Assembly (NCBI GenBank): GCA_944320945.1
Contig: CALUJK010000013.1
Location: 1-56,996 of the forward strand
DNA length: 56,996 nucleotides
DNA from: an uncultured Bacteroides sp.
GTDB taxonomy: Bacteria; Bacteroidota; Bacteroidia; Bacteroidales; Bacteroidaceae
Reading direction: 5' to 3'
The position numbers and the translations under genes were made by a program. This document shows, in pieces, positions 435-16,700 of this stretch; position 1 is the first letter of the stretch; every line of letters begins with the position of its first letter. Below the pieces are notes generated by a model. The model was not told where the DNA came from. It ran no database searches and saw only the letters and a program-made list of their open reading frames with translations.

Positions 435-1949
435 TCATTTCAGCTGGATGCTGCTCCATGATGTTTGTATGGCTTCTGAGGGGATTACCGTTGGAGTTTG
501 TTTTTTGTAATTTACTACAACCGATTGCCGTTTGACCTGCTTGGTGACATATTCCGAAAGTTCGCCCAGTGTGATGTTACCGTTGCTTTGTTTTAATCCT
601 TTTAGCAGGAAATACGTAAATAGTCCGTGTCCTTTAGAAGTATATTGATGTGCGGTTTCATCGCCTGTGGCGGCACTGAATACTACCATGTTTCCTCGTG
701 GTGCTTCTTCTTGTACCTTAATGGCCACTCCTCGCGTGGTGGACAGCATTTCGTCCTCGCGCTTGGCTCCGCTGAAACAGGCGTCGAGGAACACAGTGAT
801 ATTTTCGGCCGGCATTTCACCTAATTCTTGATAGAGACGCGCCAAACTGTAACCGGTGGCATTCACTTCGGTACTGTTCCCGTCCACAGGCAGCAGGTAG
901 GCAGAGTCACCTTTGTCGTCGGGCACTCCATGACCGGCATAATAGAGAATAAAACGCGCTTTGCCGTCGTACGCATCGGCAATGTCTTTCATCTGTTGAA
1001 CAGCGGCAATGAGGGTACCGAAAGTGGCGTCTTCCCACATGCGGATGTGTTCCTGTGGCAGTCCGAGCGTCTGTTGGCAATATGCCTTGAAAATACGTCC
1101 GTCGTTCAGTGCGTAAGGCACGGGAGCCTGCGGGTAGTTCTCATTGGCAATGATGAAAGCAAAGAGTGTCGTGTGGTCATTCGTGCGGTTCGTAGGGATA
1201 TCCTTGTCTACATCCGAGTTCGGGGCAGGATAACGCGACACGGCGGGTGCATTTGGGTCGCGTTTTTTGCCGGCAGATACCACGTTGCCTATTTGTGCAA
1301 TGCGTATCAAGTCAGGATCTTTCAACGGGTTTTTCAACAGTGTGGCCTGTCCGTCTTTCGTTACGGTGGCTACATCGTTGCCGAATTGCCCGGCACGGTC
1401 GTATTGGCAGGGGATGATTTCTTGCCCGTAAGCATAATATCCCCACTTGCCGCCTACCACGTCGTCAATGCTTTTATAGCTGTTCGGCTTGATGCGCCCG
1501 CCTTTGTTCACAAGGAAAATGTCTTTCTCACCCGCTACGGCTTCGGTAACGTATTCATATTCGATGGGCACCAAGATGTTGCCTTCGGTATCACCGGCTC
1601 CCACTTTGCTGCCCAAGTATAGGGGATAGGCTTTCCGAGTGGGAATGAAGTAGATTTTCTCGTCGTAAATGACATCGTATATCAGTTTCCCGTCATACCC
1701 GTACACACCAAACTTGCCGTCTTTCTCCACGCTCATGGCAATGTCTCCGAAGATGATTTCGTCGAATTGGCAGGGCACGATAATTTCTTTCTCTTTTGAA
1801 CGGCATCCTTTATGGCCGTCGTAATCTTCCATCACATATACTCCACGTTGTTCGTACCACCATTCGTTGTCTATCTTTTGCTGGCTTTGTGTAGGCTGTA
1901 TTCCACCCAATGTTATGCAGAGGAAGATGAATAGTGTTTTTTGTTTCAT
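435..1949 (-). CDS. Secreted WG-repeat caspase-like (C14) cysteine protease
   Basis: A 504-residue protein with an N-terminal signal peptide (residues 1-22, cut after TQSQ). Residues 30-205 carry degenerate WG-type repeats (units such as GKWGYYAYGQEIIPCQYD), usually protein-binding. Residues 260-480 form a peptidase C14 (caspase-like) domain with the catalytic dyad present: His340 in YYAGHGVP and Cys391 in FLDACFSG. It should cleave proteins outside the cytoplasm; the substrate is unknown. It follows the larger paralogue at 1969 by 19 bases on the same strand, so the two are probably co-transcribed. Fold and catalytic residues are clear; the biological role is not. Confidence 0.85.
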   Translation of the reverse strand: MKQKTLFIFLCITLGGIQPTQSQQKIDNEWWYEQRGVYVMEDYDGHKGCRSKEKEIIVPCQFDEIIFGDIAMSVEKDGKFGVYGYDGKLIYDVIYDEKIYFIPTRKAYPLYLGSKVGAGDTEGNILVPIEYEYVTEAVAGEKDIFLVNKGGRIKPNSYKSIDDVVGGKWGYYAYGQEIIPCQYDRAGQFGNDVATVTKDGQATLLKNPLKDPDLIRIAQIGNVVSAGKKRDPNAPAVSRYPAPNSDVDKDIPTNRTNDHTTLFAFIIANENYPQAPVPYALNDGRIFKAYCQQTLGLPQEHIRMWEDATFGTLIAAVQQMKDIADAYDGKARFILYYAGHGVPDDKGDSAYLLPVDGNSTEVNATGYSLARLYQELGEMPAENITVFLDACFSGAKREDEMLSTTRGVAIKVQEEAPRGNMVVFSAATGDETAHQYTSKGHGLFTYFLLKGLKQSNGNITLGELSEYVTKQVKRQSVVVNYKKQTPTVIPSEAIQTSWSSIQLK

Positions 1950-1968
1950 AGTCGTTTATGAAATGTGT

Positions 1969-3930
1969 TTAAAGTTTAATGCTGGTCCATGTTTCTTGTT
2001 GTGCGGGCGAGGCGAAAAGCTCGGGCGCTTGCACCTCCTTGAAAGTGCGTAAGGATTCTTTCTTTACTTCGTTGGTCACGGCTTCTACCAATTGTCCCAG
2101 TGTGGCACCCGTCTTGTGTTGTTGCAACTGTTTCAGCAGCGCGTGGGTGAAGAGCCCGTGTTGGCAATCTTTCGATGCATACGCCGTACCCTCGCCAGAA
2201 GTGGCTTGGAAGATAACAACATTGCCTGCCGGAGCTGCTTTCTTGGGTTTGATGCTGATACCGCGCGACTGCCCCATAGCTTTTCCGTCTTTGTCCGTAC
2301 CGGCGAATCCCGCATCCAGTAACACTACGGTGTGTCGGGTGGGCATCTGGGCCAATTCCATGTAGAGCTTGTCCAGACTGTAGGCGGTGCTTTCCAAAGA
2401 AGTGGGCACGGCATCGACGGGCAGCAGGTAGGCGCCGCGTGTCTGGTTGTGCGTGGCGCCCAGTCCGGTGTAGTAGAAGAAAATGGTGGCATCGCCCTCG
2501 TATGCTTCGGCAATGTCCTTCATGCGCTGCACCATGCTGACGAAATTGCCATACGTGGCATTCTCGTAGAAACGGATATTTTCGGCGGGGATGCCAAGAC
2601 GTTTCTCGCAGTAATCCTTGAAAATTTTTCCATCGTGAGAGGCATAAGAGGCTACCTGGTCGTAGTACGATTCGTTGGCCACGATGAAAGCAAACTTTGT
2701 ATCGTCAGTTTGTCCTGTGACGGGTATATCGGTGTCCACGCTCGATCCGCTGCCTACGGCCAATTGCGTGCCTGTCAGTGGGTTGGTGAGAATGGAGGTT
2801 ACGCCGTCTTTAGTCACCTGTGCTACGCCGTCCTTGAAGGCCTGTGCGCTTTCATATTGGGCGGGAATGACTTCTTTCCCGGTAGTTACATCAAGGTAGC
2901 CCCATTTCCCGTTTTTGCAACCGCATTGCCACGTCTTGTTGTTTGACCAAACAATACCGCCCGTATTGAATGCTGCTAGCCCCTCTTGAGGAAGGCATAT
3001 ATATGTATAGGTAAAAGGGACAATTTGTTTTTTTGTTTTCCCGTTGTACAGTCCCCACTTTCCGCCTACCGGCCAAAAACCGTCTGTTGGTATGTCACCT
3101 CCTAGACAGGCTATGATATAATCGCCTTTCGTGCTGAGGTAGGTGTATTTACAGGGCAGTATCTCCTCGCCTTGCAGGCTGGCGGCTCCGTACAATTCGT
3201 TTGTTTTTACCATACAGAAGTTGCTTTGTTTGAAACAATATGTGTACACAAAATCATATTTGCAGGGCACAACGAGCGTTCCGGTTCGATCGGCTGCTCC
3301 TGCTTTCCCGTTCAACTTCACTTGACAGTAGTTCCCCTCTTCCAGTTCCCAGCTGTTGATGTCCTCGTACTTACAGGGAATTATTATTTGCCCTTTCTTG
3401 TCTACGACACCCGTCAGCCCGTTTAACTTCACGTTGCAGAAATCTTGGTCTTTCAGATTGAATACCTTGACTTCGTCGTACTTGCAGGGGATGACTTCGT
3501 GTCCTTGTTTGTCTACCACGCCGCTTTTCCCGTTCAGTATTACTTCACAATAGCCGTAATCGGCAATTTGGTACCATCGCACAGTCTCGTATTTGAATGG
3601 CAGCAATTCCTTGTTGTTTAGGTCGCGGATGGCGGTTTTCCCATCCTTTTCTATTGTATAGTGTGAGCCTTGGAAATGCACATCATCATATATGGGCGGG
3701 ATAATTTCGTTGCCTTGGAGGTCGCACGCTCCATGGTTTCCCTTGTCACCATAGGTGCCGGTGGAGATGACGCTGTACCACCCGCCATCATGATCGTGGA
3801 AAGTCACCAGTTTGTATTTGGTTTCCAACTGTTTCGTCACGTCCGGATTTTCTTGGGCACTAACTATAGCGAGGTTTGCCAACAGGCAAACGACAGCTGT
3901 GCCCCAACTTAGGAATAGATGTTTCTTCAT
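1969..3930 (-). CDS. Secreted WG-repeat pseudocaspase (catalytic dyad lost)
   Basis: A 653-residue protein when started at the ATG at 3930, which begins a signal peptide (MKKHLFLSWGTAVVCLLANL...). A frame-open extension to 4008 overlaps the promoter and is probably not translated. About 390 residues hold at least six WG-like repeats (units ending in IIPCKYD or VIPCKYD), followed by a C14-like domain clearly paralogous to the downstream protein. Both catalytic positions are replaced: YYTGLGAT in place of YYAGHGVP puts Leu at the His position (residue 490), and LLDAGFAG in place of FLDACFSG puts Gly at the Cys position (residue 541). The rest of the fold is well kept and the frame intact, so it looks like a selected pseudoenzyme, perhaps a partner, inhibitor or decoy for the active copy. 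Confidence 0.85.
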   Translation of the reverse strand: MKKHLFLSWGTAVVCLLANLAIVSAQENPDVTKQLETKYKLVTFHDHDGGWYSVISTGTYGDKGNHGACDLQGNEIIPPIYDDVHFQGSHYTIEKDGKTAIRDLNNKELLPFKYETVRWYQIADYGYCEVILNGKSGVVDKQGHEVIPCKYDEVKVFNLKDQDFCNVKLNGLTGVVDKKGQIIIPCKYEDINSWELEEGNYCQVKLNGKAGAADRTGTLVVPCKYDFVYTYCFKQSNFCMVKTNELYGAASLQGEEILPCKYTYLSTKGDYIIACLGGDIPTDGFWPVGGKWGLYNGKTKKQIVPFTYTYICLPQEGLAAFNTGGIVWSNNKTWQCGCKNGKWGYLDVTTGKEVIPAQYESAQAFKDGVAQVTKDGVTSILTNPLTGTQLAVGSGSSVDTDIPVTGQTDDTKFAFIVANESYYDQVASYASHDGKIFKDYCEKRLGIPAENIRFYENATYGNFVSMVQRMKDIAEAYEGDATIFFYYTGLGATHNQTRGAYLLPVDAVPTSLESTAYSLDKLYMELAQMPTRHTVVLLDAGFAGTDKDGKAMGQSRGISIKPKKAAPAGNVVIFQATSGEGTAYASKDCQHGLFTHALLKQLQQHKTGATLGQLVEAVTNEVKKESLRTFKEVQAPELFASPAQQETWTSIKL

Positions 3931-3956: not shown

Positions 3957-3964
3957 CAAATATA
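3957..3964 (-). promoter_or_regulatory. -7 box of caspase-pair operon promoter
   Basis: The minus strand reads TATATTTG, a perfect match to the Bacteroides -7 consensus TAnnTTTG, 26 bases upstream of the ATG at 3930. This supports the shorter start. No clear -33 TTTG was seen at the usual spacing. Confidence 0.6.
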
Positions 3965-4648: not shown

Positions 4649-6241
4649 CTACTTACTGCTTTTCTTAAACGTATTGGCAATCTCCTTTCGCAGGTTGGTC
4701 CAGCGGGGCATCAGTTTCAGTTCCCTGCGAATGGGGGTGTCGTAGAGCAGGAACAACAGGAACAGGAGGATGCAGGCATAGATGCACCACCCGTATATCT
4801 GCTTGATGCTGACTTCCATCATGCGGGAGACGAACTCTTCCATGAACGTGCCGCTTAAAGGCGCTGTGCGGCTGACGGCAACCCGTTCGATGGCGGCGCC
4901 GTAGCGTGCCAGATTGTCGGCTACATAGTGTGACAGTCCCTGTGCATAGAGCGCTGCTCCCATCACACCGCCCACCACCATGTGGAGCATGTTGAACACG
5001 CTCAGTGCCTGGAAAAAGTGCTGAAAGGTCATAATCTCTTCCAGACAGACCATGAATGTGGCACTTAGCACGGCGTATGCAAATCCGCGGCAAATGACAG
5101 GCAGGTATAGCTGGGAGATGTGGATGTCTGCTGAGAGTGTGAAGTAATATCCCATCAGGTAACACGCCAGCATGGCAATACCCACGGAGATAAGTCGCAA
5201 GTAGGAGAAACGTCTGATGTGCATCCACCAGTATGAGAACAGACAGCCTGCCACTACTCCGATAAGGGCAAGCCAGTCCAACCGGACACTGACCATTTCC
5301 TCGTAGTGCATCACTTCTTCATAGAACACCTCTTCCAGCACGCGTTCTGTGGCAAGAAATGCTTCGACCAACGTAATCAGTATCAGTACGGGCAGCAGAT
5401 AGCGGTAGGTCCACATCTTTGGTTCGAAGTACGGGTGACGGACGGTGAACATGCGCCATAGGCACAAGGCCAGCGTCAGACCGATGATGACTGCCAACCG
5501 GCGGATGACCGGGCTGTTCCACCAGTCATACCAGTCGCCGTAGTCGAAGAAGTATGCCACTTCCAGCAACAAGGTGGCCCATAGCACCGCCCCTAACCAG
5601 TCGATGCCGAAAAGTGGAAACTTCTTGACGATGCGGAAGTGACGGGTGCAGGCGGTCACTATCAGCAGGTCTATCAGCATGATGCCGCTGATGAACCAGT
5701 GCATGTAGCTCCAGTGGTAGTAGTACATCAGGTGGGTGGCAATCAGGTCCGAGACTTGCATGCTTCCCAGGATGATGATGTGCAGGAAGGGGAAGAATAC
5801 GGTGAAGTCGCGCTTCGGCGTCATCCAGAGCTGGATGTTGGACATACATTCAAACGTGCCTTGTATCTTGCATATTCCCTCTATGAAGCATACTGCCCAA
5901 AGCAGCGGCAGGAATGTGATGTGCGGGGCAAGCAGATTGCACACCAATACACCGGTGGCGGCGGCAGTGAGCAACGTCTTGTTCGTGAAACGGAACTTCA
6001 TGCGGAACAGCATCGGGAAATGGATAGCCATACCCGCCAGATTTGCGTAGAGGCACATCAGCAGGTCTTCGCGCATCAGGGTGGTTTCGCCTATCATCTG
6101 ATTGAGCGAACCGAGGTATAATCCGCCGGACAGTTGGAAGGATACGGCCATGAAGACATAAATCCACGGCTGGAGAGGCCGGGGAACAAACTGCCGGAAC
6201 ATCGGCATCGTGAACGGGCCGTTCAGTACAGGTGCTCCCAT
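4649..6241 (-). CDS. MFS-type drug efflux permease of tripartite pump
   Basis: A 530-residue hydrophobic protein with about 14 predicted membrane segments, the layout of the DHA2/EmrB group of major facilitator permeases. It would move toxic compounds across the inner membrane in exchange for protons. The stop of the HlyD-family gene lies 3 bases upstream of this start, so the genes are translationally close and form a TolC-HlyD-MFS operon. The sequence is divergent: I could not pick out a clear MFS motif A, and one loop near residues 295-320 is unusually rich in Glu. Family assignment rests partly on context; the substrate is unknown. Confidence 0.8.
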   Translation of the reverse strand: MGAPVLNGPFTMPMFRQFVPRPLQPWIYVFMAVSFQLSGGLYLGSLNQMIGETTLMREDLLMCLYANLAGMAIHFPMLFRMKFRFTNKTLLTAAATGVLVCNLLAPHITFLPLLWAVCFIEGICKIQGTFECMSNIQLWMTPKRDFTVFFPFLHIIILGSMQVSDLIATHLMYYYHWSYMHWFISGIMLIDLLIVTACTRHFRIVKKFPLFGIDWLGAVLWATLLLEVAYFFDYGDWYDWWNSPVIRRLAVIIGLTLALCLWRMFTVRHPYFEPKMWTYRYLLPVLILITLVEAFLATERVLEEVFYEEVMHYEEMVSVRLDWLALIGVVAGCLFSYWWMHIRRFSYLRLISVGIAMLACYLMGYYFTLSADIHISQLYLPVICRGFAYAVLSATFMVCLEEIMTFQHFFQALSVFNMLHMVVGGVMGAALYAQGLSHYVADNLARYGAAIERVAVSRTAPLSGTFMEEFVSRMMEVSIKQIYGWCIYACILLFLLFLLYDTPIRRELKLMPRWTNLRKEIANTFKKSSK

Positions 6242-6244
6242 TGC

Positions 6245-7276
6245 TTAGTATTTTACTTTACATTCCACGTTGAAACCGGCGCGGAGCAGTTTCAGTTTTT
6301 CGGCATCGTTTTCCTTCAGGCTGATGCGGACGGGTACGCGCTGTTCCACTTTGACAAAGTTGCCCGTGGCATTGTCTTGCGGTATCAGGGAGAAGGCGGC
6401 TCCGGTGGCGTCTGAGATGGATTCCACGATACCCGTATAGGTGACACCCGGTACGGCATCGGCAATGAGTGTCACTTCGGCTCCCTCCCGGATGTTGGGC
6501 AGTTGCGTTTCCCGGTAGTTGGCGATGACCCACAGGTCGTTGTTGTCAACAATATCTACCATGGTCTGTCCGGGTTGCACCAACTGGCCTTCGTGAATGT
6601 CCTTGCGGCCGGTGACACCGTCGCAGGTGGCCAGGATGACGGTGTAGGAGAGGTTCAGACGTGCCAATGCTACGGCTGCTTCGGCCAGACGGATGCCTGC
6701 TTCGTTTTGTCCCAGCCGTTGTGTCTGTTCCTGCTCAGTCAGCGAGGTCGATTGCTTGGCGTGCAACAATTGTTCGTACCGGGCCTTTGTGCTTTCGTAG
6801 GCGGTCTGCACGTTGTCATACTGCTGACGGGTGACAGCGTCCTCGTCCAGTAGTTTCCGGTAGCGTTGGTATTCGCGTTCGGCATTCTGGAGCTGTATGC
6901 GGACTTCTTCGATACCGGAGTCGCTGACCTTCAGGTTATTTTGTATCGTACTGATGCCGGCATTGGTCACTCGTCTGCCGGAAAGTGCATTGGCAAGGTC
7001 GGCTTCTGCTTGTGCCAGGCGCAGGCGGAACTCGGCGTCCTCGATGACGAGCAGCGTGTCACCCCGGTGTACCGGTTTGTATTCTTCGAAATAGATTTTC
7101 CGGATGAAGCCTTGTACCCGTGTATTGACGGGAGTGATGTGTTGCTTTACTTGTGCATTGTCTGTGTATTCCACACCCGGATGGATGAAACGGGAGCAGA
7201 CATAAATCAAACCTCCTGCCAGCAGGCAGATGATGATGGTATTGTAGGTCAGTTTTTGTACTTTTCTTGTTGTCAT
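6245..7276 (-). CDS. HlyD/EmrA-family periplasmic adaptor
   Basis: A 343-residue membrane-fusion protein. Residues 13-32 form a single N-terminal membrane anchor. Next come a barrel-sandwich (lipoyl-like) half ending in VQGFIRKIYFEEYKPVHRGD, a long coiled-coil hairpin (about residues 75-200, rich in Ala, Glu, Gln and Arg), the returning half (TCDGVTGRKDIHEGQLVQPG) and a beta-barrel domain. It bridges the MFS permease and the outer-membrane channel. Middle gene of the efflux operon; 116 bases separate it from the upstream TolC-family gene, and that gap holds a large palindrome. Confidence 0.9.
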   Translation of the reverse strand: MTTRKVQKLTYNTIIICLLAGGLIYVCSRFIHPGVEYTDNAQVKQHITPVNTRVQGFIRKIYFEEYKPVHRGDTLLVIEDAEFRLRLAQAEADLANALSGRRVTNAGISTIQNNLKVSDSGIEEVRIQLQNAEREYQRYRKLLDEDAVTRQQYDNVQTAYESTKARYEQLLHAKQSTSLTEQEQTQRLGQNEAGIRLAEAAVALARLNLSYTVILATCDGVTGRKDIHEGQLVQPGQTMVDIVDNNDLWVIANYRETQLPNIREGAEVTLIADAVPGVTYTGIVESISDATGAAFSLIPQDNATGNFVKVEQRVPVRISLKENDAEKLKLLRAGFNVECKVKY

Positions 7277-7301
7277 AGCTTTTATGAGTTAGTTGGTGAT
7301 A

Positions 7302-7390
7302 GTTGACGAGTGGACAAGTGGACGAGGCAACGAGGGGGGAAAGCAACGAGGGGTGTCCTTGTGCCCTCGTTAACTCGTCTCCTTGTCAAC
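7302..7390. repeat. Long imperfect palindrome between tolC-type and hlyD-type genes
   Basis: The arms 7302-7336 and 7364-7390 pair (gttgacgag...caacgaggg with ccctcgttaactcgtc...caac). The left arm is itself made of near-repeats of ggacaagt and gacgag. RNA from this spot should fold into a strong stem without a following T-run, which fits an internal mRNA-processing or stability element better than a terminator. Confidence 0.6.
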
Positions 7391-7392
7391 TG

Positions 7393-8703
7393 TTACAACG
7401 TATGGGTGATATATTTCATTTTGTAATAGTGATAAATCACGTTGATGCGGGCATTCACCAGACTGAGGTCGGCATTCAGCTTCATGTTGCTGGCATCGAG
7501 CATGTCAGTCAGCAGAGCCAGTTCGTTGCGGTAGCGGTTGGCGGTGACGCTGTAGTTCTCGTCAGCCAGCTCCACGCTCTTTACCTGGGTGCGCAGTTCG
7601 GTAAATGCGGTCAGGAAATTGACGTAGCCGGCCTGTACGGCGTTCTCTACTTCCTCTTGTGCCAACTGGTGACTTTCTTGTGCTTTTTGCACATTCAGTT
7701 TGGCCTGTTTTAATTTGCGGTTGTTCTTGAAGAGGGAGGACAGGTTGTACTTTACGCCGACTCCTACGTACCAATAGTTGAAGTTGTTGTCCAGTACCGG
7801 CACTTCTATCGTGATGGGGCCGTCCAGATGGTCGGCTGCCATGAGCGAGATTTTAGGCAGGCGCTCCGAACGTTCCATTTTTACTTGCTGTTCGTTCATT
7901 TGGATGTCGATTTGTGCCTGTTGTAAGTCCAGATTGTTTTGTTCGGCCATATCCTGCCAGTTCTCTTCACTGAGAGTCTGTATCTGTTGTTCCAGCAGTA
8001 CACTGTCGGGCACGATGACGGTCTCTGCGGGTAAATGCAGTGTGGTGACCAGCCGGTGATTCATGATTTTGCATGCATCCTGCACCTGTGCCAGTTGTAG
8101 TTCCAGCATTTCCCGTTGCAGTTCATAGCGGGTGATGTCGTTTTGCAACGCTGTGCCTTGTCGGCGGCGTGCCTGCATGTTGGCTATCACCTGGTCGGTC
8201 AGTTCCAAGTTCTTTTGCAGCACTTGTATCTGGTTGTTCAGCTTGTATAAGTCGAGGTAATAGCCGGTCAGCAGGAAGCGGATTTCCTGGCGGTTCTTTT
8301 GCCAGTCCAGTTCGGCCTGTTGCTTGCCCAATTCGGCCAGTCGGATGCCGCTGTTGATGGCACCTCCGGCGTAAATGACTTGTTGTGCTTCCAGTGCAAA
8401 GTTATTGCCCCAGTGCGGCATGTCTATTTTGGTACCGTTGCCGAAGTCACGGTCCCACAGGCGGCCGTTTCCTAAATAACTGGCAGAAAGGGATACGTTG
8501 ATGTCCGGTTGCCGTTGGGCCTTGGCGGTGCGTAACGCCTCGTCGGCAGCCGCCTTTCCGGTTTGATATACTTGTATGCGCTTGCTGTTCTGGTCGGCAA
8601 GACCGAACATTTCGTCGATGCCCATCACGCGCTGTTGGGCATACGGATTCTGGCTGCATAGCGCTGTGAGGCACAGCACTATGAGCCTTGCTTTGTTGCT
8701 CAT
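7393..8703 (-). CDS. TolC-family outer-membrane efflux channel
   Basis: A 436-residue protein with a signal peptide (about residues 1-22, ending PYAQ) and two long helical repeats typical of outer-membrane efflux proteins. The helices are rich in Gln, Leu and Ala (QLAQVQDACKIMNHRL; KLKQAKLNVQKAQESHQLAQ), with beta-strand segments between them. It would trimerise into the outer-membrane duct of the pump. First gene of the three-gene minus-strand operon with the adaptor and the MFS permease. The upstream region is shared with the divergent gene at 9082. Confidence 0.9.
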   Translation of the reverse strand: MSNKARLIVLCLTALCSQNPYAQQRVMGIDEMFGLADQNSKRIQVYQTGKAAADEALRTAKAQRQPDINVSLSASYLGNGRLWDRDFGNGTKIDMPHWGNNFALEAQQVIYAGGAINSGIRLAELGKQQAELDWQKNRQEIRFLLTGYYLDLYKLNNQIQVLQKNLELTDQVIANMQARRRQGTALQNDITRYELQREMLELQLAQVQDACKIMNHRLVTTLHLPAETVIVPDSVLLEQQIQTLSEENWQDMAEQNNLDLQQAQIDIQMNEQQVKMERSERLPKISLMAADHLDGPITIEVPVLDNNFNYWYVGVGVKYNLSSLFKNNRKLKQAKLNVQKAQESHQLAQEEVENAVQAGYVNFLTAFTELRTQVKSVELADENYSVTANRYRNELALLTDMLDASNMKLNADLSLVNARINVIYHYYKMKYITHTL

Positions 8704-10610: not shown

Positions 10611-11183
10611 TTAATACAATAAAGCCCCTGCTGCTCCACATAGCACAATGAGCAGTATGGGGCTTATTTTATAGCGGCGGGAGGCGATAAATGTTCCTGC
10701 AAAAAGGAAACAGCTGATGATGAACGAATAGAGGTCTTGCTGTGGCGATCCAAAGTTTTCCGTGTTCATCAGTACCAGTGCGGCAGATGCCAAGAGACCG
10801 ACTACGGCAGGGCGTAATCCGCTGAAAACGGCTTCCACGGCGGGATGTTTCTGATACTTTATGAAAAACTTACTGATGGTCAGCATTAAGATAAAAGAGG
10901 GCAGCACAACGGCAAATGTGGCAATGCACGACCCTACAATGCCCCATGCCATGCCATAACCGGCCTCGACCACAGTACTATAGCCCACATAGGTTGCAGA
11001 GTTGATACCGATGGGACCCGGCGTCATCTGGCTGATGGCGACAATATCAGTAAATTCTTGTGCGGTGAGCCATCCGTAGCGGGTCACCACTTCGCCTTGT
11101 ATCATGGACAGCATGGCATATCCGCCACCAAAGCCAAACAAGCCGATTTTGAAAAAAGTATAGAACAGTTGTAGGAATATCAT
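10611..11183 (-). CDS. Chromate transporter family (CHR) half-size subunit
   Basis: A 190-residue membrane protein with about six hydrophobic segments and CHR family motifs: FGFGGGYAMLSMIQGEVV near the N-terminus and ISQMTPGPIGINSATYVGY. Short CHR proteins occur as tandem pairs and work together; this is the second of the pair. Known CHR proteins export chromate or act on sulfate-like oxyanions; the real substrate here is unproven. The upstream paralogue ends 20 bases before this start. Confidence 0.88.
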   Translation of the reverse strand: MIFLQLFYTFFKIGLFGFGGGYAMLSMIQGEVVTRYGWLTAQEFTDIVAISQMTPGPIGINSATYVGYSTVVEAGYGMAWGIVGSCIATFAVVLPSFILMLTISKFFIKYQKHPAVEAVFSGLRPAVVGLLASAALVLMNTENFGSPQQDLYSFIISCFLFAGTFIASRRYKISPILLIVLCGAAGALLY

Positions 11184-11203
11184 CTTCTTTTCTGATTACA
11201 TGT

Positions 11204-11755
11204 TCAATGTCTCGTTTTAAATCGTCCCCAAACATATCCTCCGACGCCTGCCGCAATGATAATCCAGATGGGAGAGAATCCCAACAGCCAGATGAGTCCA
11301 GCAGAAACAATGGGTATCCATATGTTGTAGCGATTGATGCGTGCCGACTTGGCCATGCTGAACGTAGGGGCGGCAATAAGTGCCACCACCGCCGGACGGA
11401 TGCCTTTAAAGATGCGTTCTACCCATTCGTTTTCTTTAAAATTGTGGAAGAACATGGCAATGGCCAAAATGATGAGCAGTGAGGGAAGAATGGTACCCAA
11501 TGCTGTGACCATGCTTCCGCGAATGCCGCGCAACCGATATCCGATAAAAATAGATATGTTGACTGCCAGTATACCGGGACTGGACTGGGCAATGGCCAGC
11601 AGGTCGATAAAGTCTTCCTTGGCTACCCACTGACGTTTGGTGACAATCTCGTTTTCGATGAGCGGTACCATGGCATAGCCGCCACCGATGGTGAAAGTTC
11701 CTATCTTGAAGAAGATGGAAAAGGCTTCGAAGTATATGTTTTTTTGCGTAGTCAT
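11204..11755 (-). CDS. Chromate transporter family (CHR) half-size subunit
   Basis: A 183-residue paralogue of the next gene, with the same CHR signatures: FTIGGGYAMVPLIENEIV and IAQSSPGILAVNISIFIGYR. Its ATG overlaps the stop of the upstream hybrid regulator gene by four bases (ATGA), so translation is probably coupled and all three genes are one transcript. Likely forms a heterodimer with the downstream subunit. Confidence 0.88.
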   Translation of the reverse strand: MTTQKNIYFEAFSIFFKIGTFTIGGGYAMVPLIENEIVTKRQWVAKEDFIDLLAIAQSSPGILAVNISIFIGYRLRGIRGSMVTALGTILPSLLIILAIAMFFHNFKENEWVERIFKGIRPAVVALIAAPTFSMAKSARINRYNIWIPIVSAGLIWLLGFSPIWIIIAAGVGGYVWGRFKTRH

Positions 11756-13464
11756 GCTTCGCTTTGTTTGCCGTATTGGGTGGGACTGACTTTGAAATGT
11801 TTTTTAAAGACTTCACGGAAGTATTTGGCATCGTTGAATCCGGTCATTTCGGCAATCTCCGTGACGGTATATTTCTGTTCTTTCAGTAATTGGCCCGCAC
11901 GCTTCAGGCGGATAAGGCGGATGTAGTCGGCAGGTGCCTGCTCGGTGAGCGCTTTTATCTTGTTGTAGAAGCTGGTACGGCTCATGTTCATTAAGGCACA
12001 CAATGAATCTACATTGAACGCCTGATTATTGATATTGTCTTCTACATGCTTTCGGACGGAAGCCATGAATTGCCAATCGATGTCAGACGAGCAGTTGATG
12101 CAGTTTCCGTCATTCTCTTCAGCTCGCCAACTGGGGTCGGCGTATTTGCGGCGCAATAGCATGCGGTTGGCTAGTAGACTTTCGATGTCGGCACGTAGAA
12201 GTCCGATATTGAACGGTTTGGAGATATATTTGTCAGCTTTGGTTTGTAGCCCTTCGATGATGTCTTTGTCCGTATTGAGTGAACTTAGCAGAATGATGGG
12301 AATGTGAGACGTCTCGATGTTGTCTTTGACCGCTTGACATAGTTCATCGCCTTGCATCTCCGGCATCACCATGTCCGAGATGATTAAATCGGGCATGTAC
12401 TCTTTCGCCATCAGCAGACCTTGCTTCCCGTTGGTGCACGATTGTATTTTGTATTTGTTGGATAACGTATTGCACAGGTAGTTACGCAGGTCATCATTAT
12501 TTTCCACAATGAGTAGCTTGAACGGTTTGTCTGTACCCGGTGCAATATCGGTTGTAGAGGATGATGGGGACATGTCGGTGCTCACAGATGAACACGGTGA
12601 TGAGGCCGTGTAATTTTTTTTGTGTGTGGAGGCATGATATATGGCTTTGCGATAATGTTTTTGCTCCAATGGAAATGATATTTTAGCACAGATTCCTTTC
12701 CCGTTTTCGTGCTGAAAACTAAGTTTTCCTTTGTGAAGGCGGACAAGTCTTTTCACTAACAGCAGTCCGATGCCGACTTCTTTGATTTCAATGCTCCAAT
12801 TATTGTTCTGTACAGTGGCAAGTATATGTATGTTTCCTCCTTCCGGAGTGTGTTTCAAAGCATTGGATAGTAAGTTCTTGAGGATAGTATCCATTCTGTC
12901 TTTATCCATCCATACATTTTGGTAGGTAAAGTTCTTGTCGTAGTTCAGTGTGATATGCTTTTGTTCTGTGTAGGGTTGGAATGCTTGTACCATGTCATTC
13001 ATGTAAGCATTCAGTTCATATTCTGTAACGGACAGATTGCCGGAATAGCAATCAGTTTTCTCGAAATTGATTAATGTCGTGGTGAGTTGCAGCAATATGT
13101 CCACGTTCTTAAGAGCGAGATTCAGGTTGTTGCGTTCCACGTCACTGATCGTATCTCGTTCGGTAATTTCATCCAATGGCGCTTTGATGAGAGTCAGCGG
13201 AGTACGCATGTCGTGTGCTGTGTTGGCAAAGAAGCGTATCTTTTCTTTGTATATTTCTCGTTGTTTGCGTAAGAACAGAATATATAGGATGGCGCTGACA
13301 AGTATAATAGCTAATATGATGTAGGGCAGGAAGTTGTTAATTGTAGGCCACAGGCTGTCTTTTGCATCTTCGGCAATGGCATTAACGGACGTATACTGAC
13401 AGGCTACTGCTTTGTCAATAGCGGCAAGCAGACTGACTATGATGATAAGTAGCAGTTTTTTCAT
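11752..13464 (-). CDS. Sensor-less hybrid two-component regulator (HTCS-like) with broken ATPase domain
   Basis: A 570-residue protein. In order: signal or first membrane segment (1-21), about 25 periplasmic residues, membrane segment (45-65), HisKA domain with phospho-acceptor His84 (FANTAHDMRTPLT), N-box (LLSNALKHTPEGG, Asn201), G2-like motif (VGIGLLLVKRLV, 230-241), receiver domain with Asp364 (IISDMVMPEMQG) and Lys416, and a C-terminal AraC-type HTH (about 470-570). It lacks the large periplasmic beta-propeller sensor of normal HTCS proteins. The G1 box, ATP lid and F box are missing: the strand WSIEIKE joins straight to VGIGLLLVK. The receiver acidic pair reads EN rather than ED. It probably still binds DNA but is unlikely to autophosphorylate. 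It overlaps the chromate transporter gene by four bases. Confidence 0.85.
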   Translation of the reverse strand: MKKLLLIIIVSLLAAIDKAVACQYTSVNAIAEDAKDSLWPTINNFLPYIILAIILVSAILYILFLRKQREIYKEKIRFFANTAHDMRTPLTLIKAPLDEITERDTISDVERNNLNLALKNVDILLQLTTTLINFEKTDCYSGNLSVTEYELNAYMNDMVQAFQPYTEQKHITLNYDKNFTYQNVWMDKDRMDTILKNLLSNALKHTPEGGNIHILATVQNNNWSIEIKEVGIGLLLVKRLVRLHKGKLSFQHENGKGICAKISFPLEQKHYRKAIYHASTHKKNYTASSPCSSVSTDMSPSSSTTDIAPGTDKPFKLLIVENNDDLRNYLCNTLSNKYKIQSCTNGKQGLLMAKEYMPDLIISDMVMPEMQGDELCQAVKDNIETSHIPIILLSSLNTDKDIIEGLQTKADKYISKPFNIGLLRADIESLLANRMLLRRKYADPSWRAEENDGNCINCSSDIDWQFMASVRKHVEDNINNQAFNVDSLCALMNMSRTSFYNKIKALTEQAPADYIRLIRLKRAGQLLKEQKYTVTEIAEMTGFNDAKYFREVFKKHFKVSPTQYGKQSEA

Positions 13465-13796: not shown

Positions 13797-16700
13797 TTAT
13801 TTCAATTTCTCTTCCACCCACTTGCGTGCATTGACAAATGCTTCAATCCACGGCGTAACTTGATCTGTGTGGATACGGTTAGCAGGATAGTAAGCGTTTT
13901 GCCACGGGAAGATAGCACGTTCCAAGTGTGGCATAATAGCTAAGTGACGACCATCAGCGCTGGCAATGGCTGCGGCGGAATAGTCAGAACCGTTGGGATT
14001 GCCCGGATATTCGTCGTATGTATATTTAGCTACAATGTTATAGTGGTCTTCATCGTAGGGCAAAGAGAACTTACCTTCACCGTGGGCAACCCAGATGCCT
14101 AATTTGCTGCCGCTGAGTGACCCGAACATAACACTGCGGTTTGTTGGAATGGTAACTCCTAAGAAACGGCTCTCAAATTTATGAGAATCATTATGCAACA
14201 TACGGCCTTGTTTCTCGTCGTGCGGGGTGATGAGATTCAGTTCCATCATCAACTGGCATCCGTTGCATACGCCCAATGACAGAGTGTCTTCGCGGGCATA
14301 GAAACGGTCGAGAGCTTCTTTGGCTTTCGGATTGAAGAGGAATGCACCTGCCCATCCTTTAGCAGATCCTAATACGTCAGAGTTGGAGAAGCCACCACAG
14401 AAGACAATCATATTGACATCTTCCAGCGTCTCGCGTCCGCTGACAAGGTCTGTCATGGTAACGTCTTTGACATCGAAGCCGGCCAAATAGAGTGAATAGG
14501 CCATTTCGCGTTCGCCGTTTGTTCCTTTCTCACGGATGATGGCAGCACGAATACCGGACGGGGTACGGCGGTCGGGGCTGATGCCATACTGAGACAACTT
14601 ACCGGTGAAGTCCGGCATGAAAGCCAAATCCATGGGTTGCATCTTGTAGTTTTCGAAACGCTTCTTGGCACAACCATTCATGGATTGCTTGCGGTCCAAC
14701 AGATAAGAAGTGGAGTACCATACATCGCGCATATAGTCAATGCCGAACTGGTAGGTAGCACCCTCTTTTTCGACAAGAATGTGGCGTTCGTCTGTCGGCT
14801 TACCCAGTTTGACATAACCGACACCTGCTTCTTCTAGAATATCTTTTACTTCGCTCTTGTGCTTGTCGCTTACCTGAATGACGATACCCGGATTTTCTGC
14901 AAATAGTATCTTAACGATGTCATTTTCCTTAATCTTGTCGAGATTTATTTCAAGACCACCTTCCATGTTGGAGAAGCACATTTCAAGCAGAGTGGTAATG
15001 AGACCTCCGGCGGAAATATCGTGTCCGGCCAGGATCAAGCCTTTGTTGACTAACTCTTGAACGGCTAAGAATGCATCACGGAAATATTCCGGATTCTGTA
15101 CGGTAGGTACTTCGTCACCAATTTTACCCAATGACTGGGCAAAGGCGGAGCCTCCCAATTTTAAGGAGTCGAAGCTGAAGTCAATATGGTAAAGAGTGGC
15201 TTTAGTATCATTCACTAATACTGGAGATACGACTTTCTTTACGTCAGAAACTTCGCCACCGGCAGATACAATGACAGTACCTGGTGCGATGACTTTACTT
15301 CCATCCGGATATTTCTGCGTCATGGAAAGTGAATCTTTACCCGTCGGAACATTGATTTGCAAAGCACAGCAGAAATCGCTTAATGCCTTGACTGCTTTGT
15401 AGAGACGGGCATCTTCTCCTTCTTGTGAACGGCAGGGCCACATCCAGTTGGCAGAAAGGGATACGCTATCCAGTCCATCGGTCAACGGTGCCCAGACAAG
15501 ATTGGTCAATGCTTCGCTGACAGAGAGCACAGAGCCAGCTTCAGGATTGGCAAGTGCAGCTTGCGGAGCATGTCCTAAAGAAGTGGCAATGCCTTTTGTT
15601 CCGCGATAGTCCAAAGCTACTACACCGCAATCGCTTAATGGTAATTGCAGTTCGCCAACGCATTGTTGGCGGGCAATTTTGCCGGTTACGGAGCGGTCTA
15701 CCTTGTTGGTCAGCCAGTCTTTGCAGGCAACGGCTTCCAATTGGAGTACGTTTGTCAGATATTCATGTAGTTTGGACAGTTCATATTGGGGCATTTCGTA
15801 GTGATGTTCTACAGTCTTATCCACCATGTAAGTCTTGGGAGAAGAACCGAACATCTGGTCAACGGCTAAATCAAAAGGACGGATGCCGTCAGCCTGTTGG
15901 AAAGCAAAGCGGTGGTCGCCCGTCGTTTCGCCTACCACATACATGGGAGCACGCTCGCGTTCGGCAATCTTGCGTACATGTTCGATAGCTTCTTCCTTGA
16001 TAAGCAGTCCCATGCGTTCTTGGCTTTCGTTGGCTATAATTTCTTTGGCAGAGAGTGTCTTGTCACCAATAGGCAATTTGCTCATATCGATTAATCCGCC
16101 ACATTCTTCTACCAATTCGGATAAACAGTTGACATGGCCAGCGGAACCGTGGTCGTGGATAGATACAACCGGGTTGGTCTCCTCTTCACAAAGGGCACGG
16201 ACTACGTTATAAGCACGTTTTTGCATTTCGGCATTGGCACGTTGCACGGCATTCAGCTCGATGCCACTGCTGTATCGTCCTGTGTCTACAGAGGACACGG
16301 AGCCTCCACCCAGACCGATACGGTAGTTATCACCACCAATAACTACAATCTTGTTGCCGGCTTCAGGGTGTCCTTTCAGACAGTCACGTTCAGTACCATA
16401 ACCAACGCCACCGGCTAACATGATTACCTTATCATATCCATAGACAGGGGCAGAGGCATTTTCCTGATGTTCGAATGTCAAGACGGAACCGCAAATCAGG
16501 GGTTGACCGAATTTGTTTCCAAAGTCGCTGGCACCGTTGGATGCTTTAATCAGAATCTGTTCGGGTGTCTGATATAACCATTTGCGTACGGGTAGAATTT
16601 CTTCCCATGAACGTTCTTCATCTGTTCGGGGATAGGAAGTCATGTAGACGGCGGTTCCGGCTATCGGCCACGAGCCTTTACCACCTCCCATACGGTCGCG

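Follow-up and report, generated by a model that had tools for sequence, protein, structure and literature searches.

The uncultured Bacteroides sp. contig CALUJK010000013.1 (GenBank assembly GCA_944320945.1), of which positions 1 to 56,996 were analysed here (the window), carries two adjacent genes for exported-looking proteins with WG repeats and a C14 caspase-like domain. The downstream product, P0001, retains the catalytic His-Cys dyad, whereas the upstream product, P0002, has lost both residues and is referred to below as the dead copy. We found that this pair is a conserved pseudo-orthocaspase/orthocaspase operon rather than a lesion. In total, 11 dead/active pairs were identified in ten genomes, from two genera of one family and from a second family, in each of which the dead copy immediately precedes a gene of one and the same active clade. 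The conserved pairing as one unit, the clade without a dyad and purifying selection together support a dedicated partnership, and we consider it probable, judging from sequence, that the two genes form a two-protein module in which an exported active orthocaspase is paired with a pseudo-orthocaspase dedicated to it.

The two genes of the window

435..1949, minus strand: active partner gene P0001, 504 amino acids (aa), with a signal-like start, WG repeat region, Arg/Lys linker and C14 domain with His340/Cys391; member of the partner clade
486..1163, minus strand: C14 domain of the active partner P0001
777..779, minus strand: codon TGT of catalytic Cys391, motif DACFSG, read in the window DNA
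930..932, minus strand: codon CAT of catalytic His340, motif YYAGHG, read in the window DNA
1194..1268, minus strand: linker of the partner clade, KKRDPNAPAVSRYPAPNSDVDKDIP, lying after the WG region and before the C14 domain
1950..1968, minus strand: intergenic gap of 19 bp, from the stop of the dead copy to the ATG of the partner
1969..3930, minus strand: dead copy gene P0002, 653 aa from its ATG, with a signal-like start, WG repeats and a C14 domain in which Leu490 and Gly541 replace the dyad; belongs to the dead clade
2011..2697, minus strand: C14 domain of the dead copy P0002
2308..2310, minus strand: codon GGA of Gly541 at the Cys position, motif DAGFAG; Pro in the remaining ten dead copies
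2461..2463, minus strand: codon CTG of Leu490 at the His position, motif YYTGLG; Leu in all 11 dead copies
3957..3964, minus strand: TATATTTG, putative Bacteroides-type -7-like box, 26 bp before the ATG of the dead copy, which we take to resemble the Bacteroides -7 consensus

The original prediction, made from the letters of this stretch, described two adjacent exported WG-repeat/C14 proteins, the downstream one with its dyad intact and the upstream one changed at both positions in an open frame. The reading frames and Pfam matches bear out the gene pair, the dyad codons are as described, and the frame of P0002 (1969-3930, minus strand) is free of internal stops. Both proteins match WG_beta_rep and Peptidase_C14 above the curated cut-offs (C14 E values 1.7e-19 for P0001 and 3.8e-14 for P0002), and these were the only matches in a general Pfam scan, in which no separate p10 model was run. 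A Peptidase C14 (PF00656) match above the curated cut-off was likewise found in all 20 proteins of the ten other pairs. Judged by eye, the N-termini of both window proteins pass from charged to hydrophobic to Gln-rich stretches and are Sec-signal-like, as are the starts of both proteins across all pairs, and no clear lipobox was seen by eye in the N-termini of P0001 and P0002. The codons of Leu490 and Gly541 each differ by two bases from the active His and Cys codons, therefore a single-base error does not explain the loss of the dyad.

The expanded WG array that had been ascribed to the upstream protein is present in the window, with five WG stretches by Pfam in P0002 vs one in P0001, but it is not a conserved feature. 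The ten other pairs have one to three stretches in the dead copies and zero to two in the partners, and on these counts a larger array was rejected as a hallmark of the dead copy. The dead protein is longer than its partner in only seven of the ten pairs with an intact partner.

In a comparison with the anti-phage defence models of PADLOC, P0001 matched PDLC02987, a caspase model (E 3.3e-11, positions 2-158 of 453) and P0002 had no match at E 0.01. The window genome (2.46 Mb, 138 contigs, 69% complete) holds six C14 matches, and the five other than the dead copy retain both His and Cys. No relatives with a solved structure were found by sequence at the limits used.

Occurrence of the pair in other genomes

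Among 158 genomes of the window's genus, a search with the dead protein at E 1e-45 returned no orthologue outside the window genome, the best foreign match being to the C14 domain only, at 45% identity. Across 399 genomes of the family one other genome, G442 of a different genus, carried a dead copy with an active one immediately downstream of it. The genus of G442 was then covered by 299 genomes searched with two dead proteins and 398 searched with the partner alignment, giving nine pairs in eight genomes (G442, G770, G799, G648 with two pairs, G680, G731, G863 and G877). One further genome with a pair, G956, belongs to a different family and was found among 295 genomes of the order; it is the sole carrier in the 18 genomes of its own family. 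At the level of the phylum (296 genomes, E 1e-75) the window genome was the sole match.

In all 11 pairs the dead gene comes first, and the gene immediately after it belongs to one active orthologous clade, one of these partners being apparently split. The distance from the stop of the dead copy to the ATG of the partner is -4 bp in G442, 5 bp in six pairs, and 6, 11 and 12 bp in three others, and 19 bp in the window. The split partner is that of G956, where an intact dead copy (L186, 5740-7581) and, 5 bp behind it, the start of a partner gene that ends after 97 codons share a contig; the rest of the partner sequence lies on another contig (L187, 7394-9088) with no start codon near its front. 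The first piece is followed by transposase and transposition-protein families, and the second is preceded by families of tail and baseplate proteins. We infer that a Mu-like prophage sits inside the partner gene of G956, with one of its ends on each of the two contigs, and that the pair was formerly adjacent. This apparent phage insertion into a caspase gene was seen over L186:7587-12688 and L187:7394-15000.

No upstream orthologue keeping His and Cys, which the original prediction had named as the sign of a strain-specific lesion, was found, as all 11 members of the dead clade lack both residues. Nor did the pairs come apart, with 11/11 adjacent over two genera and a second family. The search from the side of the partner agrees. 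Across the 398 genomes of the one genus the partner profile gave nine matches of at least 805 bits, all adjoining a dead copy, and the next match scored 394 bits; no orphan partner gene was found in this search, which scored a maximum of three candidates per genome and through which a solitary dead copy could escape outside the 299-genome set. That the pair turns up again in a further genus and a further family suggests a role for the dead protein as functional partner of the live one.

Another reading of this adjacency is that the dead copy has an independent binding function, e.g., as an envelope or ligand scaffold of WG repeats and caspase fold, and is merely co-expressed with its neighbour. 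Adjacency can mirror co-regulation, other exported-looking neighbours recur beside part of the pairs, and small unicellular cyanobacteria with only the pseudo-variant have been described, whose proteins were argued to be independent of active ones (PMC6426788). We nevertheless hold this reading to be rather unlikely, given the one-to-one pairing with a single active clade in 11/11 cases, the lack of an orphan partner in 398 genomes, and the higher conservation of the former active site than of the remaining dead domain.

Beyond the cellular genomes, no match covering 80% of the dead protein was found in plasmids (21 records) or phages (4 records), and two scans of viral contigs gave no relative. 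One scan of genome contigs returned a single distant active homologue, L037. Larger groupings of C14 genes were also seen: L158 (G648) holds two dead/active pairs in tandem and two further active C14 genes within 14 kb, and L101 (G497), L079 (G049) and L160 (G731) hold clusters of three to five C14 genes, with dyads intact except in the one dead copy of L160.

Residues lost and residues kept

The His position is occupied by Leu in all 11 dead copies and the Cys position by Pro in ten and by Gly in one, that of the window; neither dyad residue occurs in any dead copy and both occur in 11/11 partners. The comparison set comprised the other C14 domains of the fetched loci, non-redundant and no shorter than 225 aa, and both residues are kept in it without exception (103/103; 84 related and 19 from a distant clade). 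For the alignment of residue patterns the 19 distant rows (L018-L036), all of which keep the dyad, were left out, leaving 84.

Two Asp residues equivalent to those of the S1 pocket, D433 and D539, are kept in 11/11 dead copies, the equivalence being assigned by motif on the basis of the pocket roles of Asp95 and Asp211 in TbMC2 (PMC6426788). With a p20 domain, a substituted dyad and the pocket Asp retained, the dead copies class as pseudo-orthocaspases. They have 43 invariant columns among themselves, and a further Asp close to the lost Cys, D546, is specific to them. Asn480 is replaced by Phe or Tyr in all 11, and the Gly after the Cys position by Asn in eight. The old active-site region has a mean pairwise identity of 0.63 among the dead copies vs 0.47 elsewhere in the domain (Mann-Whitney p 6e-4, 9 sequences; near-copies G863 and G877 left out, with site columns chosen by the authors and one choice tried); the same contrast is 0.81 vs 0.73 in the partners and 0.64 vs 0.49 in the 84 others.

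The partners have a feature of their own in the linker between WG region and C14 domain. An SRYP.P motif is present in 11/11 partners, embedded in most of them in the basic pattern KKK..GP.VSRYP.P.SDVD..IP. SRYP occurs in 0/11 dead copies and, in untrimmed frames, in the linker region of 0/84 related proteins outside the two clades; in 78 of these 84 the sequence ahead of the domain is 40 residues or longer. This Lys/Arg linker, found in the partner only, could, as a matter of speculation, make up a docking site together with the acidic pocket that the dead copy has kept.

The acidic pocket could also be read as that of a substrate or decoy, processed by the partner as TbMC4 is by TbMC3, with the cleaved form as the effector. 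The trypanosome precedent (PMC6426788) and the kept pocket are in its favour, yet the conserved basic linker is found in the partner and in no dead copy, no search for a further cleavage site conserved among the dead copies having been made, and we regard this reading as quite improbable.

Phylogenetic placement and selective constraint

In an LG+G4 tree of 106 rows the dead copies (11 rows) form one clade and the partners (11 rows) another. With the dyad columns removed and under LG+C20, the dead clade has a support of 100/99 and the partner clade of 100/96 (bootstrap/SH-aLRT). The two clades stand apart in a FastTree of 119 domains (8 + 8 rows) as well as in the 106-row LG+G4 tree; they come together with a support of 99.7/100 when 25 random outside rows are used, and of 57/51 under LG+C20 with the dyad columns dropped. 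The active protein L135, which has a long branch, is placed next to the dead clade in the FastTree and 106-row LG+G4 trees. Since both clades are common to genera and families, a recent tandem duplication in the window lineage is unsupported; it is possible that the pair has been transferred as a unit. Within the 106-row tree the groupings G680 with G863, G648b with G877, and these four together are common to both clades.

The dead C14 domain is under purifying selection, i.e., it displays constraint plus divergence rather than decay. A comparison of substitution rates in the dead copy, which had been put forward as a check, gave omega values (NG86) for the dead C14 domain of 0.055 (G680/G863), 0.061 (G648b/G877), 0.077 (G680/G648b) and 0.081 (G799/G731); those of the partner domain were 0.048, 0.059 and 0.059 for the first three species pairs, the estimate for G799/G731 having failed. 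These pairs cover genomes other than that of the window because no close relative of the window carries the pair. With the dyad missing in 11/11 upstream copies, all of them upstream of one active clade, and dead C14 omega at 0.055-0.081, the prediction of a selected pseudoenzyme partner is supported.

A strain-specific decay, in which the upstream gene would be a recently inactivated duplicate, could be argued from the Gly that stands in place of Pro at the Cys position in the window alone and from the lack of an orthologue within the 158 genomes of the window's genus. However, the change of His to Leu is shared by 11/11 dead copies over two families, the omega of the dead C14 domain is low (0.055-0.081) and the frames are open. 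A lesion of this kind is rejected for the clade as a whole, and we consider decay highly improbable for the window gene.

A possible regulatory partnership

Our best-supported guess is that the dead protein regulates its neighbouring protease in the cell envelope, be it as an activator or as an inhibitor. Both proteins would be produced jointly and sent out to the periplasm or cell surface, where the dead C14 domain would bind and regulate the active protein in the manner of cFLIP with caspase-8, and the WG region of the dead protein may add a sensing or scaffolding surface. More speculatively, the acidic pocket of the dead copy could hold the basic linker of the partner in the role of a pseudosubstrate, the protease being released or activated only on a signal. 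As a wider and tentative proposal, which is possible though we would not expect it to hold in full, an envelope FLIP-like system may have arisen in bacteria through a single loss of the dyad, creating a dedicated pseudocaspase that serves one active orthocaspase clade as its obligate regulatory subunit and docks via its retained acidic pocket on the basic linker peculiar to that clade, with the pair spreading among Bacteroidales as a unit.

Several observations weigh against such a partnership. The pair is rare and patchy, being carried by 1/158, 8/398 and 1/18 genomes of the three groups, and co-transcription alone could account for the adjacency. The two clades match only partly in their branching order, e.g., G956 groups with G442 among the dead copies vs with the window among the partners. 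The dead copies diverge faster, with a mean C14 identity of 0.52 vs 0.75 in the partners (54/55 comparisons), and whole-gene omega is higher for the dead gene than for the partner (0.163 vs 0.080 in G680/G863; 0.112 vs 0.079 in G648b/G877). Substitutions are few in the closest species pair, G680/G863, and saturation prevented several of the omega estimates. Finally, an AAxGDETA stretch found in 11/11 partners occurs in 0/11 dead copies, and this alteration makes the case for a substrate-holding role weaker.

Comparison with known systems

The human pseudo-caspase FLIP(L) is a eukaryotic, cytosolic protein, and CspC and CspA of Clostridioides difficile have a subtilisin-like fold. FLIP(L) is not part of a two-gene operon, and the present bacterial complex is a proposal from sequence. 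FLIP(L) resembles the dead copies as a dead paralogue that works with an active caspase (PMC7586951), and its dimerisation with caspase-8 is recounted in PMC6426788, where cFLIP and TbMC4 are given as eukaryotic pseudo-forms acting with active relatives. CspC and CspA are bacterial pseudoproteases in a signalling role, but they sense spore germinants (PMC12880746). CASPS18/CASPS19 of Aedes aegypti are insect proteins with an unrelated loss of catalysis (PMC4840389).

Pseudo-orthocaspases as a kind are already known in bacteria, and what is new is a conserved dead/active operon with a Leu-Pro (here Leu-Gly) dyad. Klemencic et al. 2019 (PMC6426788) counted 858 pseudo-forms among 9,994 bacterial orthocaspases, 10/1078 in Bacteroidetes, a count that may include the present clade. 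Those proteins are like the dead copies in having a C14 p20 domain with a substituted dyad and two pocket Asp kept; the dyads given there include Tyr-Ser, Tyr-Ala, Phe-Ser, Tyr-Asn, Gln-Cys and His-Ala. The present clade differs in its Leu-Pro dyad (Leu-Gly in the window) and in its dead/active operon, and the terms 'Leu', 'operon' and 'gene pair' are absent from the main text of that survey. Pseudo-orthocaspases found alongside true ones were there judged most likely to be uninvolved in their regulation. Predicted operons with more than one caspase homologue were described by Asplund-Samuelsson et al. 2012 (PMC3501461), 20 in number and with Bacteroidetes among four groups, but the operon section of that paper makes no distinction between active and dead members. 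No report of a dead/active caspase pair was found among the literature matches listed, which consisted mainly of titles and the openings of abstracts, most subscription journals and preprints being outside their scope.

Pseudocaspases that act with active caspases are known in animals and trypanosomes, and such control was judged unlikely for bacteria in the 2019 survey (PMC6426788). A strictly paired and selected dead/active operon, of which there are 11 natural copies, makes the question of regulation directly testable in bacteria. The pair also directs attention to an exported proteolytic system in Bacteroidales.

Genomic surroundings

In the window 434 bp separate the 3' side of the pair from the end of the contig, where the view of further downstream genes ends. 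Across the ten loci compared, exported-looking proteins of 223 and 289 aa (four loci each) and of 157 aa (five loci) recur beside the pairs, as do a protein of about 490-540 aa (four loci) and a CHASE2 sensor protein (three loci), with Pfam matches (PF05226, E 2.4e-20) obtained mainly on the G680 copies. None of these recurring neighbours was seen in the first 16 kb of the window. The window genome, at 69% complete, gave no CHASE2 match in a search that was positive in 2/14 control genomes. A search for the DUF4384-like neighbour, run without a positive control, was negative there as well.

The fullest surroundings described here are those of G680 (L159:3484-6244 and 14191-15735), with the CHASE2 sensor protein, a 540-aa exported-looking protein without a Pfam match, a DUF4384-like protein (26.2 bits against a cut-off of 27) and the 223-aa protein. 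Upstream of the pair in the window and on the same strand, positions 4649-8703 hold an HlyD-type adaptor, an outer-membrane efflux protein and a 530-aa protein without a Pfam match that is transporter-like by reading. Further on, at 10611-13464, two adjoining chromate-transporter genes lie beside a gene with histidine kinase, response regulator and AraC-type helix-turn-helix domains.

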